Part shown: positions 20,967 through 31,948 of the stretch, one piece after another
Position numbering within the stretch: the stretch's first letter is position 1
Layout of the letters: every line of letters begins with the position of its first letter
Assembly: GCF_000002515.2 (NCBI RefSeq)
Contig: NC_006041.1
Location: forward strand, 1,612,001 to 1,676,000
Origin: Kluyveromyces lactis
Lineage: Eukaryota > Ascomycota > Saccharomycetes > Saccharomycetales > Saccharomycetaceae
DNA length: 64,000 nucleotides
Direction: 5' to 3'
Made by a program: the position numbers and the translations under genes
The notes under the pieces: model-generated
The model's database searches: none
Seen by the model: the letters and a program-made list of their open reading frames with translations, nothing else
Told to the model about the DNA's origin: nothing

Positions 20967-22598
20967 ATGCCTGAAGGAGTGACGGGGGACTCTGTGAAGC
21001 CAGTATCCATCTTGACTAACCGGTCAAACTCCAATACCAGCACTGTTTCCGATGCTGGTGAAGGAAGAAATGTAAGTTTAGGCAAGATAGAAGAGATTTC
21101 TGGACGCTGTGGACCAGCTAGACACCCAAATTATGAACCTGTGAACGGTCACGATTATGTGAATCCCCAGAAGCTTATTCAAAAGTTGCAGTTGGTGACT
21201 AAGTCTTCTGAGAAAGAAGGCGAAAGGGATTCAGACAGAGATGTACTTGGTGAGAGAAGAGAACAAGGAGGATCACATGGACCGTTAAGGACACCCTTGA
21301 CTGCAACATCAGTATCATTCACGGTTCCCGAGCATCAGGATAAAGTCATTGCGCATAGGCTTTCTATTTCCACAAGACCCTCATCGACCAAATTGGGCAC
21401 TCCAACCACAGTAGCCTCTTCTAGCGAAGCTCCTCCCACCATCACACCAGTGAATTCTATCAGTTCCACAACTCGTGAACCGGACACGGGTCATGTTACC
21501 AACACGTCAACGGCGGCTACTAATACTGCCAATACTTCTGGAGCTGGATCATCTCGTCAGAACTCTGTGCACATACCTGGTGATTTCATCTATTTCGAAG
21601 CTAAACCAAATAACGGGACGCGCAACGGTGGTGATGGCGCAGTGTCCCCTAAAATGACAGGTGTCCTGGACCGTGAACTATCACCCTCTGCCACGTCTCT
21701 TGATTATAATGACCCCATCGCTGCCGTCGCCGCCAAGAAGGCTACTACCAAGAAACGAATCAGTGAAGAGGAACCACACGTTCCTTTTACCGAATTGTTT
21801 CAAAAAGAGGATGATGAAAAAGTACATATTCTAATAGGTGCAACGGGGTCTGTCGCCACCATTAAGGTACCGATGATCATCGATAAATTGTTCAAGATAT
21901 ATGGGGAAGACAAAGTGTCGATCCAGCTAGTACTTACGAAACACGCGGAACATTTCTTGAAAGGTGCCAAGATCAACAAAGAGGTCAAGATATGGAGAGA
22001 TGAAGACGAATGGTATGGGTTCAAAAGAATGGGAGATCCCGTATTGCACACGGAACTTAGAAAATGGGCTGATATCTTCGTAATAGCTCCGCTAAGTGCG
22101 AATACCTTGGCTAAACTAGCCAACGGTATATGTGATAACTTATTGACGTGTTTGCTACGATCCTGGAAATCGAACGTACCGGTGATGCTCGCGCCAGCGA
22201 TGAACACATTTATGTATATTCATCCTGTGACGAAAAAGCATTTGAAAATGTTACAAGAAGATTATCCATATATAGAGGTGTTAAAACCGGTAGAGAAGGT
22301 TTTAGTATGTGGTGACATCGGAATGGGAGGTATGAGAGAATGGAATGAGATTGTCGAAATCATTACGAAGAGACTTCATCTAATACTGGGAGAAACCAAG
22401 GAAGATGAGGACCGTGATGAAGAGGGACGTGATGAGGACGAAGATGAGGATGAAGATGAGGATGAGGATGAAGATGAGGATGAAGATGAAGATGAAGATG
22501 AAGATGAAGATGAGGATGAGGATGATGACGACGACGATGATCTTTACGAGGAAGAAACTAGATCTCAGGAAGATCAAACATCCAAGAAAAGTAAATGA
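20967..22598 (+). CDS. SIS2: Hal3-type subunit of phosphopantothenoylcysteine decarboxylase and Ppz1 inhibitor
   Basis: A 543-residue homologue of the duplicated pair Sis2 (Hal3) and Vhs3. These bind and inhibit the protein phosphatase Ppz1, affecting salt tolerance and cell cycle, and with Cab3 form the heterotrimeric PPC decarboxylase of coenzyme A synthesis. The N-terminal 270 residues are serine/threonine-rich and disordered. The flavoprotein domain spans about 285-475: ILIGATGSVATIKVPMI, the catalytic-type histidine in VLHTELRKWADIFVIAP, the substrate-clamp motif APAMNTFMY, and VCGDIGMGGM. The C terminus is a long aspartate/glutamate run (about residues 475-530), diagnostic for Sis2/Vhs3 rather than Cab3. 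Which of the two duplicates it resembles more cannot be decided, as this is a pre-duplication genome. Confidence 0.93.
   Translation: MPEGVTGDSVKPVSILTNRSNSNTSTVSDAGEGRNVSLGKIEEISGRCGPARHPNYEPVNGHDYVNPQKLIQKLQLVTKSSEKEGERDSDRDVLGERREQGGSHGPLRTPLTATSVSFTVPEHQDKVIAHRLSISTRPSSTKLGTPTTVASSSEAPPTITPVNSISSTTREPDTGHVTNTSTAATNTANTSGAGSSRQNSVHIPGDFIYFEAKPNNGTRNGGDGAVSPKMTGVLDRELSPSATSLDYNDPIAAVAAKKATTKKRISEEEPHVPFTELFQKEDDEKVHILIGATGSVATIKVPMIIDKLFKIYGEDKVSIQLVLTKHAEHFLKGAKINKEVKIWRDEDEWYGFKRMGDPVLHTELRKWADIFVIAPLSANTLAKLANGICDNLLTCLLRSWKSNVPVMLAPAMNTFMYIHPVTKKHLKMLQEDYPYIEVLKPVEKVLVCGDIGMGGMREWNEIVEIITKRLHLILGETKEDEDRDEEGRDEDEDEDEDEDEDEDEDEDEDEDEDEDEDEDDDDDDDLYEEETRSQEDQTSKKSK
22433..22537 (+). repeat. 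GAT/GAG trinucleotide microsatellite in SIS2
   Basis: About 100 bp of GATGAG/GATGAA codon repeats ending in a short GATGACGAC run, encoding the acidic Asp/Glu tail of the Sis2-like protein. Length variation between strains is likely because the frame is kept by any three-base change. Confidence 0.85.
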
Positions 22599-23390: not shown

Positions 23391-25427
23391 ATGTCAACAC
23401 AACACATTTTTGACCCAGTTACCGATACTGAGATCAGAACCACTTCCAAGCTTTTGAAAGATTTGAACGGTGATGCCAAGTTGCACTTCCTTCAAATCGA
23501 CAGATTGGATCCTCCAAAGGACAAGGCTATTCAATACTTGAACATTGAACGTTACGGCGGTGGTAAATTGCCATACATCCCAAGAAGAACATATGCTTAT
23601 TACTACATCAATGACAAGATGCCTTTGTTCAAGGCAATCGTTAACGTCAGTGAAAACCACGTGATCTGTAATGTCGAAACCCCAGAAGGTACCATTGGTC
23701 CATTGTTGCCAGAAGACATGGCCAAGGCAGAAGAAGCATCCCTAAAGCATCCAGCAGTGCTCGCAGAAATTGCCAAGTTGAAGCTAGACCAAGCTTCCTA
23801 CAACCACGCAAACTTGGGTAAATTAAGTTACAAAGTCGTCTCAGAACCATGGATGTACGGTACTGATTCTCCAAATGATAAGACCCCAATGCTACAATGT
23901 TACATGTACTTGAAACTAGACCATCCCGATGCTAACCATTACTCCGTGCCATTGAGGTTTTCACCAGTTTTCGAATACTTGTCTTTGAAATTTGTTAGAA
24001 TGGATTATTTACCTTCTGGTGCTGATGAACTATACATCAAAGAAACTTTACCATTCAAGGCAATCCCAACTGTCGAATACCACCCAGACGTCATCGAGAA
24101 CTTCCAGGAACGTGAAGGCTTGAAACCATTACTCATCCAACAACCTGAAGGTGCCTCTTTCAACGTTGACGGTACAAAGATCACTTGGCAAGGTTGGGAA
24201 TTTAGAGTCGCTACGAACTGTAGGGAAGGTTTCGCGTTGTATGATGTTCACTTCAAGGGCAGATCCTTGATCTATCGTGGAAGTCTCGAAGAGATGACCG
24301 TTCCGTACCTTGACAGTCGCGCTCCGTACCACAGGAAGCAAGCCTTCGATCTAGGTGATTGTGGGTTCGGTAACACTGCGAATTCTTTGGCTTTAGGCTG
24401 CCATTGTTTGGGTGTTATCAAATATTTGGATACAACAAGAGCCGACGCAGATGGTAGTCCAGTTTTGATTCCATCAACCATCTGTATGCACGAACAAGAC
24501 TACGGTTTGCTATTCTTGCACCAGAACTACAGAACTGGTTCTACTGTTGCAACCAGAAGAAGAGAATTTGTCATTCAAACAATCGCAACCGTCGCTAACT
24601 ATGAATATATCATCAACTTGATCTTCGATCAAGCTGGTGCCATTACAGTGCAAGTTAGAGCCACCGGTATTTTATCCACTATGCCAAATGATGAGGGATG
24701 TGTGACCGATTGGGCCACTCCAGTTGGCCCAGGCGTTACCGCAGCCTTCCACCAACATTTACTTTCATTCAGATTCGATATGAGATTGGACGGTGATAAG
24801 AACACCGTTGTGTACGATGACTACTTGCCAATGGAAGAGAACACAGCTCTAAATCCATATAACATTGGTGCCACTCAAAAGAGAACTTTTGTTGAAAAAT
24901 CGGGTTCCATCGATCAATCTCCATTCACTAATAGAACATATAAGGTGATTAACGAAAACTCAATCAACCCGGTAACTAAGAAGCCAGTCGGTTACAAGTT
25001 CGAAATGCCAGCTAAACAAATGATCTTGGCTTCTAAGGATTCATACAACGTTAAGAGAGCTCACTTCGCAACTAAACAAATTTGGGTCACCAAGTACGCA
25101 GAAGACAGAATGTATGCAGCTGGTGAATTCACTAACCAGTCGACCGAAGACACCGGTCTAAAGGTTTGGGCAGATGGGTCTGAAAGCGTTAGAAACACAG
25201 ACATCGTTGTTTGGCCAACTTTGGCTCTAACACATCCTCCGGTCACTGAACAATTCCCAGTGATGACATCTGATTTCTTGCAATTCTTGATCACTCCAGC
25301 TTCGTTCTTCGACCGTAACCCAGCTCTAGATGTCCCACTTGCAAACAACAACTTCAACAAGTCTGTATATTATGAAGATGCTAACAAGGCGGACGGCAAG
25401 CCATCGTCCGAGTGTTGTAAGATGTAG
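23391..25427 (+). CDS. Copper-containing (TPQ) primary amine oxidase
   Basis: An intact 678-residue copper amine oxidase, which converts primary amines with oxygen and water to aldehyde, ammonia and hydrogen peroxide so that the amine can serve as a nitrogen source. The self-processing tyrosine that becomes topaquinone is Y404 in ANYEYI. The catalytic base is D320 in RKQAFDLGDCGFG. Copper ligands are H454 and H456 (HQH) and H615 (ALTHPP). The C terminus (SSECCKM) resembles the CC-containing end of the Hansenula enzyme and is not a PTS1 signal. Most codons are highly biased (AGA, CCA, GGT), pointing to strong expression, except between about 24213 and 24402, where ACG, AGG, GCG, CCG, CGC, GGG and AGT cluster. 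S. cerevisiae has no homologue. It is followed by a decayed endonuclease gene and a decayed 3' copy of itself. Confidence 0.96.
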   Translation: MSTQHIFDPVTDTEIRTTSKLLKDLNGDAKLHFLQIDRLDPPKDKAIQYLNIERYGGGKLPYIPRRTYAYYYINDKMPLFKAIVNVSENHVICNVETPEGTIGPLLPEDMAKAEEASLKHPAVLAEIAKLKLDQASYNHANLGKLSYKVVSEPWMYGTDSPNDKTPMLQCYMYLKLDHPDANHYSVPLRFSPVFEYLSLKFVRMDYLPSGADELYIKETLPFKAIPTVEYHPDVIENFQEREGLKPLLIQQPEGASFNVDGTKITWQGWEFRVATNCREGFALYDVHFKGRSLIYRGSLEEMTVPYLDSRAPYHRKQAFDLGDCGFGNTANSLALGCHCLGVIKYLDTTRADADGSPVLIPSTICMHEQDYGLLFLHQNYRTGSTVATRRREFVIQTIATVANYEYIINLIFDQAGAITVQVRATGILSTMPNDEGCVTDWATPVGPGVTAAFHQHLLSFRFDMRLDGDKNTVVYDDYLPMEENTALNPYNIGATQKRTFVEKSGSIDQSPFTNRTYKVINENSINPVTKKPVGYKFEMPAKQMILASKDSYNVKRAHFATKQIWVTKYAEDRMYAAGEFTNQSTEDTGLKVWADGSESVRNTDIVVWPTLALTHPPVTEQFPVMTSDFLQFLITPASFFDRNPALDVPLANNNFNKSVYYEDANKADGKPSSECCKM

Positions 25428-25546
25428 AAGTGGTTGATAAAACTAAATATTAAATATTCCCTGTGTAAGCAATTATTGAAAAACTATGAAATGAGCAACT
25501 ACTAAAGATCCATCAAATGAGCAATAATTACTGTAACGCACTTCCC

Positions 25547-28343
25547 CTACTTAGCTGGAAATAGTTCAACTATTGAATCGCATTTAATACAAGTAAGTTC
25601 AATTGTATTCTTAGCCAAAGCTGTTGCCTTGATTTCGTCGAGTTCTGCCTTGCACGAAATCCACGAGCACGATATGTGTGGAATCTAAAAGCGCATCCAG
25701 CGCATATTCTTTCTGGGTTCATCTTATCCCAAGGAACCAGTGCCGGTGAACTCTTGAAACCATTGTGACAACCATAACATTTTTGTCCAGGTTTAGCCTC
25801 CAGACGTTGCCATGGCTTCACATTAGGATCTCTATACGTAACATTCTTACATTTCACGCATGGAAAACTTTCCACTTCTAAACCATCTGGTAAGCTTCCT
25901 TTTACAAGAGGTAAAACTTCAGTCTTGTGCAACTCTGATTTTGAGGGTATATAATTGTACTTGTTATCCAAAAACCGCGTTGCGGTTCTCGTATACCTTG
26001 CATGGCAACTATCACATATTCTATTTTTATCTAGCTTTGACCAAGGCAATCGATACCAGATAACTTCAAATGTTCTTCCACACGAGATACAGTTGCCCGG
26101 AGTCTTTACCCTAACGATCTTTCTCAATCGTTTGGTTGTATCTTGGATCGTAACTCCCTCACAGTTCAAACATTTTAACGCAGAAGTTGGACTAGGACTA
26201 ACTCCATTCTCTTCTCTGTACTTTTACTTTATAGTCTTTACATTGCCTCTATTGTGTATAAAAGTGCAATCCGTGTTTCGACATCTATACCAACTGAACC
26301 GTTGGTAATGGTCACAGTTGGGGAAATCCGTTTCCCAAAATATACCTTGTCATTATACCATGTCATGGATGTATCAGTTTTGCAACTGTTGCAATGACCT
26401 TTTTTTCGACTTTGATTGTACAAATCTTCTCTTCGGTTATCAAATACCACAGTACCAGCACACTTGAGACAGGGGAAAGCTATCGTGGGGGTTCCATCAT
26501 CAAGGAATGACTTGATCGAACCCTGCTTCAACGCTGTTTCTCTTTCTGCCTTGGTGACCACAGAAAGACACTCTTTATTCGAGCACATGGTTCTGGAGAC
26601 TCTGAAAGTACAATAACATTTCTGACACATTTTGATAACCTGAGAAGATAGTGTCAAGTTTCCATTCCAGGAAGCTGGAGCCCATTTATCGAGCGAGCAT
26701 TTACAGGAACAGCAATTGTATGCCTCCTGCTTAGTGGAAGTCAGTATTATTTGATGTTCTGTGAGATAAATATTATTTTCTGCAACACGGAAGTCGTATG
26801 AACGTTCATATTGCCCAGTATCTGTGCATTCAAAAGAGTATAATGGGTTGTTTATAGCAATAGGGTCTCGTCTCAAAAAAGGACCAACACCGTAGATTTC
26901 AGGGAATGCACCCTTGACGGTTGCCTTTCTGATACATCCAGATCTAGTTAGCAATGATTTAAGCATTTCAATATTGAAACCAGGGGTAATGACAATATTG
27001 TAAGTGTCTTGAATATTCCAACCCTCCCTTGATATGTGGGCTGGTATAAAAGAAATGCTGATATTTAACCCCAATGATCTGCATATTGCAATGGCACCAT
27101 CCTTGATGGGATTGTAAACCGATCAGATAGAGATATACGAGAAGGGTCTCTTATCTGAATAACCATCGCTATCCATCAAACCTGTCATTAAGGACTCTCT
27201 CACAAGTGGTTCATCGTAGCTATACTTTTTGGAAAGTTCTTTTCCTTGTTTACTATAAACTCGAGATTCTTGACTACATTCCAGAATGGAATGCCTGTTG
27301 TCAATAACCTTAACTTCCCAGGTTTGTTGAATAAAAATGCTGTTGCACCTAAATTTTCCATGCAATTTACCATTCTCATACTCAAACCCAGATTTCGCCG
27401 TACCTTTTCAAAGTCTAATTGACATCGTGATCTTCTTTGTTTAATGCAAACATTGAACACCTTCTATAGCCGTCGCCTAACCAGAACCCTAAAAGCCATG
27501 CCAATGCCCCGAGCTCCCGATCACTGATAGGTTTGTTGAACAATGATTCCAATTGTGTACGCATAAAGGAAGTTTGTTTATTTACTGCACTCAATTGGAT
27601 TCTCGTCTTCTGCCTGATTGGCTCATGCAACTTGTCTATCCTTATGACTTCAGCAGACCATGAAATATTGTGGGCATCTGAGCTCTTTTGCATGCGGAAC
27701 AATGGGGGCTCGTCACTGATAGCCAAATCTTCAGTCTGAGCACGTAAGAGCCCTTCTTGCATTTTATCGTGTATTTCTTGTTCACTATCAAGGGCAGCTT
27801 GTGAGTCATAATCTTTTACTCTTTCAGTTAAACGGAAATCGTTTATATCGTCTTCGAGATCTTCTTCGTCATTCAATTCTATATCATGAACACCACTGTC
27901 ATCTGCATTATCAGGCTCTTCATCAACTACCACTATATCAGAAGTGGGAACGATACCACCATCGTTCTCATCGACAGCAGTATCGTCAGAATCCACGGTG
28001 GTATTACCAGCTGGTATGACCCCAGGTTCCAACAGCCTTTCTTCTGGATTACGTCTATCCTGAAACATTCCTTCAATATACGGTTTGATAACATCAAAGC
28101 TTGAGAACCCGAACATCTCAACCTTATCATATCAAAGGAAGCAAAATTCACATCTTTATTCTTATGGGCACGATGTGGACTAAGCTGAGTGATTTCAAAC
28201 ATTCTTTCATGGCAGTTAATGATGCTCTGCACGAAATTGGCAGACCCATCTGAGGACAATACTTCTTCCTCTATCGTGACATCTTCTATGGGCTTTAGAC
28301 TGCCATCAGCCATGAATACCAAAGTCCCCGCTGCAACACTCAT
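25547..28343 (-). pseudogene. Decayed HO/VDE-like LAGLIDADG endonuclease gene
   Basis: Read on the minus strand from the ATG at 28343, successive frames give in order: an intein-like Hint N-terminal block (FMADGSLKPIEDV, then HRAHK as in the VMA1 intein VDE); an acidic spacer; the first LAGLIDADG helix (ALAWLLGFWLGDGYRR, about 27513-27460); GIPFWNVVKNLEF, matching HO NPFWKAV; the second helix (RESLMTGLMDSDGY, about 27200-27158); SVYNPIKDGAIAICRSLGL, matching HO and VDE; a Hint C-terminal block; and from 26714 onward about a dozen C-x2-C pairs forming roughly four HO-type zinc-finger units, ending CIKC near 25580. Around six interruptions (frameshifts and one in-frame TGA near 27123) show that it is not functional as read. 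The intein splice residues are absent at the start (MSVAAGT in place of Cys) and the usual T-x2-H is replaced by CSGSQ. The coding equivalent of about 930 residues is much longer than HO (586), because of the acidic spacer and extra zinc units. Confidence 0.92.
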
Positions 28344-28528
28344 TATATGATCAGTATGCCTTTAACCCACCTAGTGCCTTGCTATAGAACAACGATAAAG
28401 TAGGTTGAAAAAACGATACTCTAATCATTAGATTCTGATGAAGAGATTTATATACCAATGAATTAGCCGCTGAAGTCACTAATAAGGGTAAACGAAAAAC
28501 TATTGGAACTTAAAATGACAAAAAGATG
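28344..28528. other. Junction between the endonuclease gene and the discarded host-gene fragment
   Basis: A 185-bp AT-rich stretch upstream of the endonuclease start. It would hold that gene's promoter and the junction to the amine oxidase remnant. No terminal repeats or target-site duplication are visible, as expected for a homing element copied by gene conversion. Confidence 0.5.
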
Positions 28529-29160
28529 TAGAGATGACCGTACCGTACCACAGGAAGCAAGCCTTCGACTTAGGTAAATGTGGCTTGCCATTCTTGCACC
28601 AGAACTGCAAAACCGGTTTTACCGTTGCAGACCAGAACAGGGGGATTTGTCATTCAAACGTCCGCAAGCATTACCAACTATGAATATATCATCAACATAA
28701 CCTTCAATAAAAACAGTTCTATCATCACAGAGAATATCAGAGCAACTGGAGACCTAGCTACAATATCAAATAATGGAACCTATGTCACGGATAGTGTCAC
28801 TCCGATAAGTTCAGATGTTAAGCAAGCTTAATTCTAAGCAGAGAAGATCTGCGTCTCCAAGCACACAGATGAAAGAAAGATTATATGCAGCTCATGAATC
28901 CACCAACCAGTTTACTGTTGACGCTGGTCTTAAGGTTTGGGTTGATAAAGCTGAAAGCGTCAGAAACACAGACAATGTTGTACGACCAACATTAGCATTA
29001 GCACACGCTCCAGTTATTGAACAATTCCTGATCACTCTAACCTCATTTTTTTTCGACCACAATTCACCACTAGACGTACCATTGGCCAACAACAAATTCA
29101 ACCAGTCGGTATCCGAATGAGGCCAGAAGTAGAGTTTAATCCTCGAATCTAGTTAATTGT
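28529..29160 (+). pseudogene. Remnant of the 3' half of an amine oxidase gene
   Basis: A decayed second copy of the amine oxidase gene covering only the part from about codon 301 to the stop and a little beyond. Matching landmarks include GAGATGACCG at 28531, CACAGGAAGCAAGCCTTCGA at 28549, NYEYIIN (the cofactor tyrosine context) near 28677, LKVWVDKAESVRNTDN near 28930, and PLDVPLANNKFNQSV before a stop at 29118-29120. Even the 3' flank matches (TAATATTCCC at 29162 versus ATATTCCC after the intact gene). It has several internal deletions, including a 21-bp one between 7-bp repeats and a longer one soon after, and shifted frames. It has no 5' half, promoter or start of its own. Confidence 0.9.
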
Positions 29161-29506: not shown

Positions 29507-29953
29507 ATGCTTCCCCCTCGACAACCAGGATGTTCTACCCTAGCACCACCGTCAGGGTCGGACGGCCCAAAGGGCAGTGGACGATCTAAAGTTGCATTAA
29601 AGCCAGGCCATGGTCCATTAGATTGGCAACAGTTACAACAAGATAAAGGGATGAAAGGTGAGTTAGTATACGGAGTAGGGTCTCCTATTCCACCTTTCAG
29701 GATACAACCACCGTTACGTGTAAATAAAGAAGCGTTGAAGGCAAATAAAGATAACTTTTGGTGTGTTATCAATAGGAAAGTGTACTGCATCAAAGCATAT
29801 TTATCATACCATCCTGGTGGCGAAGTGATATTGAAACAGTGCGCGGGTAAAGACGTAACGTCTTTGTTCAACAAATACCATCGATGGGTCAACTACGAAC
29901 GGCTATTGGAGACGTGTTTTATCGGAATGTACGTTGGATCTGCGGAAATATAA
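29507..29953 (+). CDS. IRC21: Cytochrome b5-like haem-binding protein Irc21
   Basis: A 148-residue protein with a cytochrome b5 fold at about residues 73-147. The two axial haem ligands are visible, H102 in SYHPGGEVIL and H125 in FNKYHRWVNYE. The N terminus is proline/glycine-rich and disordered, leading into KPGHGPLDWQQL, a block shared with Irc21 (YMR073C, 201 residues). Lack of a C-terminal membrane anchor separates it from the ER cytochrome b5 (Cyb5). In S. cerevisiae the gene affects Rad52 foci and drug resistance, and its electron partner is not settled. The protein is shorter than the S. cerevisiae one because of a shorter N terminus. Confidence 0.85.
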   Translation: MLPPRQPGCSTLAPPSGSDGPKGSGRSKVALKPGHGPLDWQQLQQDKGMKGELVYGVGSPIPPFRIQPPLRVNKEALKANKDNFWCVINRKVYCIKAYLSYHPGGEVILKQCAGKDVTSLFNKYHRWVNYERLLETCFIGMYVGSAEI

Positions 29954-30553: not shown

Positions 30554-31948
30554 TCATTCTGCAGCAGCTTCAGCTTCATGTTCCGCATAAGATTCTTCCC
30601 ATTCCTTTAATTTTAACTTGTAGGAATCTGTGTATTTTTGTTTGGAAGGGCCGTCCAATTCTCTCCATTTTTCACCAATCAGTTTGGTGATTTCGATCAA
30701 AGTCTTATCTGGTTGTTCTTCCACGAGTAATGGTCGTATATCCTTTGTGAATTGTAAGAAGGGACCGGAAGGTCTCTTTGGAGGCAAAGTCTCCTCGTAT
30801 TTCTTTCTAGCGATTCTATATTTCTCCCAGTTGGTCTTAAATTGATCGAAGAAAGGTTTCTTTTCCTCGTCGGTCATAGATTTCCATTTGGCACTCGATA
30901 ATTTTGATAGTTCTGGCACTTTTGCATCAGGGTATTGCTTTAAAAGTTCTGGACGAATCGAGATGGAGAACAAGAAATAAGCGGACGAAGGTCTCTTGGG
31001 ACCTTGTTTCTTCAATTCTTTACGTTTTGCGATACGTGTTTGAGTAATGGAAAGTTTCTTGACAGGAGGTTGGGCAGTTTTCCCGGATCCATTGGTGGAA
31101 GGAGATGCCGACCCAGCGGATCTTTTCCCAGATTTGGGTCCTGGTTGATTACCACCGCGTCTTTGAGCACCAGCACCACCTGGAACGCCAGCCGCGTTAA
31201 CAGCACCGCTACCACTACCGCCGCTTTGACCACCCAAAAACTGGAACTGGCTTGGTATTTGGACCTGAGAATCCATTATCTGTTGCTGTGCGTAGTACCT
31301 AGGGGAAATCTGACCAGCAGCCTGACCATAATGCTGTTGCATGGAAGCATGGGCCTGGGCTTGTGCTTGAGCCTGGGCTTGAGCTTGAGCCTGGGCTTGA
31401 GCTTGAGCCTGGGCTTGAGCTTGAGCCTGTGCTTGTGCCTGCGCCTGAGCCTGAGCCTGCGCCGCTTGTACCTGCGCTTGCTGCTGCTGCTGAGACCCCG
31501 GTTGATTCTGCTGTCTTTGATTAAACTGCGCCAAGATCTGGTTCAACATCGCGTCAGAAACCTGATGGCCTGGCATGGGCATTTGCATCTGCATCTGCAG
31601 CGGTAAAGACGACACGCCCTGTTCAGACGAATTCGCGACACCACCCATCGAATTCTGAGGAGCAAAGTAGTTATGGAATTGGTACTGCGAATAACCGGCG
31701 CCATTACCACCGGCCATCGGATGGCCTGCGCCAGCTTGAGAAGATTGAACGCCAGATTGCGCAGGGACTGAATTCGAGTTGCCTGAATTCACCTGGCCAG
31801 CTGAATGCTGGCCACTCAACATATGGTAAGATTGTGGTGATTGCACTTGCATGGAAACGGGCACGCCGTGTCCTTGCTGCGCGTGTTCTTGTTCGCCAGA
31901 ATACATCAAATCCTGATGTTCGCTATGTCCTTGGTTATTGAGATTCAT
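30554..31948 (-). CDS. IXR1: Two-HMG-box DNA-binding protein, IXR1/ABF2 ancestor type
   Basis: A 464-residue protein with two HMG boxes: residues about 316-388 (PKRPSSAYFLFSISIR) and 389-458 (PKRPSGPFLQFTKDIRP), closely similar to S. cerevisiae Ixr1. The N-terminal half is glutamine-, glycine- and serine-rich with an Ala-Gln dipeptide tract at about 152-199. Ixr1 represses hypoxic genes such as COX5B, influences dNTP pools and binds cisplatin-modified DNA. Ixr1 (YKL032C) and mitochondrial Abf2 (YMR072W) arose from one gene by the genome duplication, and this gene occupies the ABF2 position between IRC21 (YMR073C) and TVP18 (YMR071C). The long Q-rich N terminus and absence of a presequence favour the nuclear Ixr1 role. 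Confidence 0.9.
   Translation of the reverse strand: MNLNNQGHSEHQDLMYSGEQEHAQQGHGVPVSMQVQSPQSYHMLSGQHSAGQVNSGNSNSVPAQSGVQSSQAGAGHPMAGGNGAGYSQYQFHNYFAPQNSMGGVANSSEQGVSSLPLQMQMQMPMPGHQVSDAMLNQILAQFNQRQQNQPGSQQQQQAQVQAAQAQAQAQAQAQAQAQAQAQAQAQAQAQAQAQAQAQAHASMQQHYGQAAGQISPRYYAQQQIMDSQVQIPSQFQFLGGQSGGSGSGAVNAAGVPGGAGAQRRGGNQPGPKSGKRSAGSASPSTNGSGKTAQPPVKKLSITQTRIAKRKELKKQGPKRPSSAYFLFSISIRPELLKQYPDAKVPELSKLSSAKWKSMTDEEKKPFFDQFKTNWEKYRIARKKYEETLPPKRPSGPFLQFTKDIRPLLVEEQPDKTLIEITKLIGEKWRELDGPSKQKYTDSYKLKLKEWEESYAEHEAEAAAE
31352..31478 (-). repeat. Ala-Gln coding minisatellite in the IXR1-type gene
   Basis: About 125 bp encoding alternating Ala-Gln. Part of it is a near-perfect 18-bp unit (GAGCCTGGGCTTGAGCTT on the plus strand, repeated about three times), flanked by more degenerate six-base units. 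Alternating codon choice suggests growth by unequal exchange of the 18-mer instead of simple triplet slippage. Confidence 0.8.

Follow-up and report, generated by a model that had tools for sequence, protein, structure and literature searches.

A decayed WHO12-family endonuclease gene and a duplicated 3' half of the copper amine oxidase gene in Kluyveromyces lactis: a putative homing element

In Kluyveromyces lactis, a broken intein-like endonuclease gene is flanked on one side by an intact gene for copper amine oxidase (CAO) and on the other by a decayed copy that comprises only the 3' half of CAO, which raises the question of how the endonuclease gene came to this place and whether CAO was its host gene. 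Coughlan et al. 2020 (PMC7282813), who described the WHO elements, name the pseudogene WHO12 beside CAO and raise CAO as a possible WHO target; Fabre et al. 2005 are cited there for the K. lactis sequence, and HO-like relics in this yeast group are mentioned in PMC5499181. Because the former paper names this very pseudogene, the CAO-side relic, which was also noticed in a preliminary description of this DNA, is already in print and is no new discovery. The comparison with WHO-type elements drawn in that description holds, as the layout matches the WHO model, and we likewise infer the homing history which it proposed.

The locus probably represents a dead WHO12-family homing element for which CAO served as the host gene in the lineage of K. 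lactis. This reading is ranked first, followed by a one-off ectopic insertion of the endonuclease gene, which we regard as unlikely, and then by an ordinary duplication of CAO, which appears more improbable still. The K. lactis relic is a published member of the WHO12 family, and its breaks, the number of its zinc modules, the age and placement of the CAO remnant and long relatives such as the protein P0122 do not appear in the available sections of PMC7282813. New here are the intact-looking P0122, the zinc array with its four modules, an age estimate for the event relative to species splits, the finding of no FBA1 trace and a codon-position test. Among the titles and abstract openings listed for later work, from a coverage that leaves out most subscription journals, no other title reported WHO12 or CAO as a target, and a term search in the main text of PMC2876123, on yeast pseudogenes, gave no match.

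Layout of the locus and the CAO remnant

All positions refer to the window, i.e. the whole stretch of 64,000 nucleotides analysed, which lies on contig 5 of the genome; the genome searches covered 7 contigs with 10,729,447 bases. A hexokinase encoded in this genome matches PDB 3o08, the K. lactis enzyme, in all 485 of 485 residues. The complete CAO gene, the broken HO/VDE-type gene on the opposite strand and the decayed CAO 3' half next to it, all of which had been noticed in the preliminary description, were confirmed in position and strand (Table 1).

Table 1. Features of the CAO-WHO12 locus and its neighbours (window positions).
Feature	Position	Strand	Basis
Flavoprotein-domain gene, upstream of CAO	20967-22598		PF02441
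CAO, intact copper amine oxidase gene, presumed host	23391-25427	+	678-aa ORF; PF01179 4e-147
WHO12 pseudogene, intein-like endonuclease and zinc-finger array	28343-25547	-	Read-through: PI-SceI endonuclease 5e-28; above cut-off, Pfam Hom_end_hint (PF05203) 5e-17 and Hom_end (PF05204) 5e-16
Endonuclease core with first LAGLIDADG motif (LLGFWLGDGY); one stop and one frame change inside	27218-27804	-	tblastn with P0122, two pieces, 41% and 46% identity
Second LAGLIDADG motif (GLMDSDGY), end of intein-like region, zinc module 1 and part of 2	26328-27281	-	42% identity to P0122 across 322 aligned columns (tblastn)
Zinc-finger array, four Ash1-type modules (second broken), 11 CxxC in read-through	25547-26714	-	Motif counts, module alignment, tblastn
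Spacer from WHO12 start to remnant; presumed WHO12 promoter	28344-28529	.	CAO homology not significant
Decayed CAO 3'-half remnant, codon 301 to about the stop; large internal deletions, frame breaks	28530-29133	+	Alignment to intact gene; tree 100/89
Cytochrome b5-type gene, beyond remnant	29507-29953		PF00173

The flavoprotein-domain gene, whose PF02441 family we take to be that of SIS2/VHS3, contains long runs of acidic residues (22380-22560), and a long Gln-Ala repeat (31270-31530) occurs in the gene at 30554-31948.

CAO is the sole full-length match in the genome, the three matches obtained being CAO itself and two pieces of the remnant. Its product shares 88% identity with a protein that carries the species name K. 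marxianus, with 91.7% identity in the 3' half and 82.6% in the 5' half. This drop was dismissed as a sign of homing, because an identity drop in the same direction was observed in 30 of 30 CAO relatives (range 2.6 to 19.0 points) and is thus a property of the protein.

The remnant aligned to CAO with a score of 243, compared to a maximum of 50 in 300 dinucleotide shuffles, and 402 of 527 aligned bases (76%) in five blocks are identical. The homology starts abruptly at position 28530, which corresponds to CAO codon 301 (24290/24291), exactly where the preliminary description had placed the start of a remnant reaching to the stop codon. Some 3' flank had also been assigned to the remnant, which was not borne out, as the similarity behind the stop was reached in 100 of 1000 shuffles and is not significant. 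Upstream of the remnant, no significant similarity to the first 300 codons of CAO was found (best score reached by 103 of 300 shuffles). An ordinary partial tandem duplication of CAO without homing, in which the endonuclease gene arrived or decayed independently, fits poorly to a remnant which comprises the 3' half only, begins abruptly at codon 301 and retains nothing significant of the 5' half, and to an HO-family endonuclease gene located exactly between both copies.

Two further observations concern the 5' edge of the remnant. The first 49 aligned bases (28530-28581 versus 24290-24362) contain 4 differences and the other 478 contain 121 (Fisher p 0.007, for a contrast chosen after the fact); a late conversion tract at this edge is possible. 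Furthermore, 21 bases that CAO has between two CCGTACC repeats are missing from the remnant (28530-28560), near the presumed cut site. This deletion may be an end-joining scar, but it was not used as evidence, since decay explains it equally well.

The WHO12 relic, its zinc-finger array and its relatives

In comparison to the open reading frame of P0122 (891 aa), the relic consists of five collinear pieces separated by four frame changes (tblastn); a fifth frame change, ahead of the tail ending at 25547, was read by eye. Stop codons inside the matched pieces are located at 27417-27415, 27125-27123 and 26226-26224. The acids of both LAGLIDADG motifs are kept in the relic as well as in P0122. 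The predicted relic protein starts with Met-Ser and has no Cys1, and it also lacks the C-terminal His-Asn that is kept by the K. lactis VDE intein; exteins are absent from the relic, and the splicing residues are missing from both the relic and P0122. The roles of these acids and of the splicing residues Cys1 and His-Asn are assumed here.

Beside the WHO12 locus, the Hom_end family was found in the genome in the VDE intein, among the best candidates scored. This intein in K. lactis VMA1 (L010, G000:C6:530952-531212) retains its end residues. Since both of its LAGLIDADG motifs (LLGAFVGSSG and LAGIVDSQNQ) are devoid of the usual acids, the endonuclease of the K. lactis VDE is, judged by these motifs, probably dead too. 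The genome search with P0122 yielded six matches among the best candidates scored, of which five are the pieces of the WHO12 locus and the only one elsewhere (4.6e-9) is an Ash1-like gene; no further WHO or HO copies were found by this search. Additionally, no significant homology to FBA1 was detected in the element (best E 0.91), and the one FBA1 gene of the genome is located elsewhere on the contig that holds CAO.

The C-terminal zinc-finger region of WHO12 resembles Ash1, and the modules can be aligned. The K. lactis gene that we call Ash1-like, following a remark on Ash1 in the paper on WHO elements, contains this module type once. CxxC motifs number 11 in the read-through of the relic, 12 in P0122, 7 in P0124 and 2 in the shortened P0123. 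Corresponding modules of the K. lactis relic and P0122 (M1, M3 and 40 residues of M4; the second module, which is broken in K. lactis, was left aside) are 35-40% identical, compared to 18-31% for non-corresponding modules within and across the two. The higher identity of corresponding modules indicates that the four-module array predates the common ancestor of the K. lactis relic and P0122 and did not expand recently.

A protein search with the endonuclease core retrieved eight proteins, with strong matches to P0122, P0123 and P0124, and a search with the whole-length read-through gave one weak intein match, probably due to few shared words. Judged by its reading frame, P0122, encoded on a contig of 2,956 bases, is an apparently intact relative of WHO12. 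P0123, on a contig of 81,534 bases, is a near relative of it (78% identical) which ends early. P0124 (667 aa), also with an intein and a zinc-finger part, is related more distantly and has Asn instead of Asp in the first LAGLIDADG motif. In a scan of IMG/VR, no relative was found.

Age and divergence of the duplicated CAO halves

Trees were calculated separately from the 5' and the 3' part of CAO (31 rows each), as the preliminary description had proposed. K. lactis paired with K. marxianus in both (100/99 and 100/98), without discordance, and a cross-species replacement of the K. lactis CAO 3' half is seen in neither. A shared phylogeny of both parts had been listed in the preliminary description among the observations that speak against homing; the trees do give this shared phylogeny, and the remnant groups with the K. 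lactis gene as described below. Since K. marxianus is the closest relative in these trees, homing between K. lactis alleles would be invisible to them; they argue against a distant donor of the 3' half but leave homing between diverged alleles of K. lactis untouched. The published homing model at FBA1 is also one between alleles of one species (PMC7282813). GC3 of both CAO halves is alike (0.463 and 0.452).

P0002, the CAO of another yeast, moves between the trees: it groups with P0003 in the 5' tree (89/86), and in the 3' tree it joins K. lactis and K. marxianus (100/96). Held on the respective other half, these groupings gave AU p values of 0.048 and 0.13. In view of these values, and because the groups were named after the trees had been seen, nothing is made of this shift, which may be noise or may mean that a further yeast also has a chimeric CAO.

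In a tree of 29 rows and 163 columns, the remnant is the sister of K. lactis CAO within the group that includes K. marxianus; its very long branch (2.07) makes this placement less sure. K. lactis and K. marxianus differ in 12 columns, of which the remnant shows the K. lactis state in 7, the K. marxianus state in 1 and neither of the two in 4. Four of the 7 columns shared with K. lactis have the same state in K. marxianus and P0002, so that the K. lactis state is probably new in K. lactis. Given the sister placement and this column agreement, the duplication most likely occurred in the K. lactis lineage once this had separated from K. marxianus. Both observations also suit an ordinary duplication, because a plain partial copy of CAO would likewise be placed as sister to the K. 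lactis gene.

The codon positions were compared under a simple model over 178 codons. Between remnant and CAO, the divergence was 0.47 at third positions (d3) and 0.21 at first and second positions (d1+2), which gives a ratio of 2.25 (95% 1.58-3.23). If a fresh duplicate decays immediately, as in an ordinary duplication, a ratio of about 1.4 to 1.7 is expected from the simulation medians. In the first simulations (six settings with 150 runs each), immediate decay yielded medians of 1.44-1.62 and upper 95% limits of 2.13-2.74, and in three of the six settings this limit exceeded the observed 2.25. In four settings with 200 runs each, the observed ratio was reached 6, 6, 8 and 12 times under immediate decay, 29, 15, 38 and 22 times with a prior constrained divergence of 0.05 mutations per site and line, and 55, 46, 91 and 52 times with one of 0.1. 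An ordinary duplication followed by immediate decay therefore reaches the observed ratio in some simulations, but such a skew is uncommon under it (6-12 of 200 runs). With so few codons and so simple a model, the skew leans weakly towards two 3' halves which had diverged beforehand as functional alleles, which is what homing predicts; a remnant that remained active for some time after the duplication would give the same skew.

CAO as a presumed host gene of WHO12

Like the WHO genes at FBA1 in Torulaspora and Lachancea, the relic encodes an intein-like endonuclease with a zinc-finger tail and without exteins, and it is located on the downstream side of an intact host gene; behind it comes a fragment of the 3' end of that gene, as is found for some of them. 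The direction opposite to the host gene is also known from some FBA1 WHO genes (PMC7282813). It differs from them in its host gene, CAO instead of FBA1, in being a single dead copy without a cluster, in the lack of discordance between the host gene halves, and in its 11 CxxC motifs as compared to the 3-5 reported for WHO proteins in the available sections. WHO12 is still filed as WHO in PMC7282813, although the presumed host gene in K. lactis is not FBA1. HO is described in the same paper as an intein-like endonuclease with a zinc finger and without exteins as well, in the same order of domains, but it is domesticated and non-homing, whereas the K. lactis WHO12 gene is broken and situated inside its presumed target locus. 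VDE (PI-SceI) in VMA1 has a homologous endonuclease domain (5e-28); unlike WHO12, which is devoid of Cys1 and the C-terminal His-Asn, it splices out of VMA1, and it possesses no zinc finger (PMC7282813).

By analogy with WHO6 at FBA1, we infer the cutting, the exact cut site and the replacement of the 3' half. An intact WHO12 protein would have cleaved a susceptible allele of CAO close to codon 300, and repair of the break would have copied the donor's CAO 3' half together with the WHO12 gene into the recipient. The old CAO 3' half of the recipient would have stayed downstream and decayed, and WHO12 would have broken later.

Homing is favoured by the anatomy of the locus, by the WHO12 pseudogenes which adjoin CAO in two Lachancea species in addition to K. 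lactis (PMC7282813) and, weakly, by the codon-position test. The grouping of both CAO halves with K. marxianus, the position of the remnant as sister to the K. lactis gene and the similar GC3 were counted against it; moreover, one fragment and one WHO gene give no sign of repeated homing at CAO. The single fragment and a K. lactis CAO in which no chimerism between species was found would also be expected if a WHO12 gene without a proper target had landed beside CAO by faulty repair, duplicating the 3' end of its neighbour, and CAO had never been a regular target. There is published precedent for such a one-off ectopic insertion, as WHO10 at BXI1 and E1850 in Torulaspora globosa is accompanied by the duplicated 3' end of the neighbouring gene, and the authors of PMC7282813 favour a WHO12 that has lost its FBA1 specificity. 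However, chance poorly explains why WHO12 adjoins CAO in two Lachancea species as well as in K. lactis, and each of the five ectopic WHO10 insertions reported in PMC7282813 carries an FBA1 fragment, whereas none was found at CAO, which was counted in favour of homing.

CAO, and not FBA1, might even have been the ancestral target of the whole WHO family, a view which overlaps with homing at CAO and does not exclude it, and which we consider to have little probability. In the published tree, WHO12 branches as an outgroup of the families linked to FBA1 (PMC7282813), and the long zinc array predates the split between the K. lactis WHO12 and P0122. On the other hand, FBA1 was judged the more likely ancestral target in PMC7282813 because WHO12 is rare, WHO13, likewise an outgroup family, is FBA1-associated, and the duplication in K. 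lactis most likely postdates the split from K. marxianus.

The authors of PMC7282813 knew of a single intact WHO12, that of Naumovozyma castellii, which is located beside GLK1. We put forward, as a tentative proposal that is possible rather than probable, that WHO12 forms a homing lineage of its own, which is dedicated to CAO and has a distinct architecture with a four-module Ash1-type array, and that intact copies, such as P0122, survive in other yeasts. If this is true, the host genes of WHO elements number at least two, and target choice may be linked to how long the zinc array is. The published account left undecided whether CAO is a true WHO target (PMC7282813); P0122 provides a protein with which this can be tested, and the long zinc array offers a concrete hypothesis for a change in target choice. 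HO, the enzyme behind mating-type switching in baker's yeast, is regarded as a domesticated WHO-like element, and the uptake of a new host gene by a WHO element would bear directly on the question of how HO came to cut MAT.
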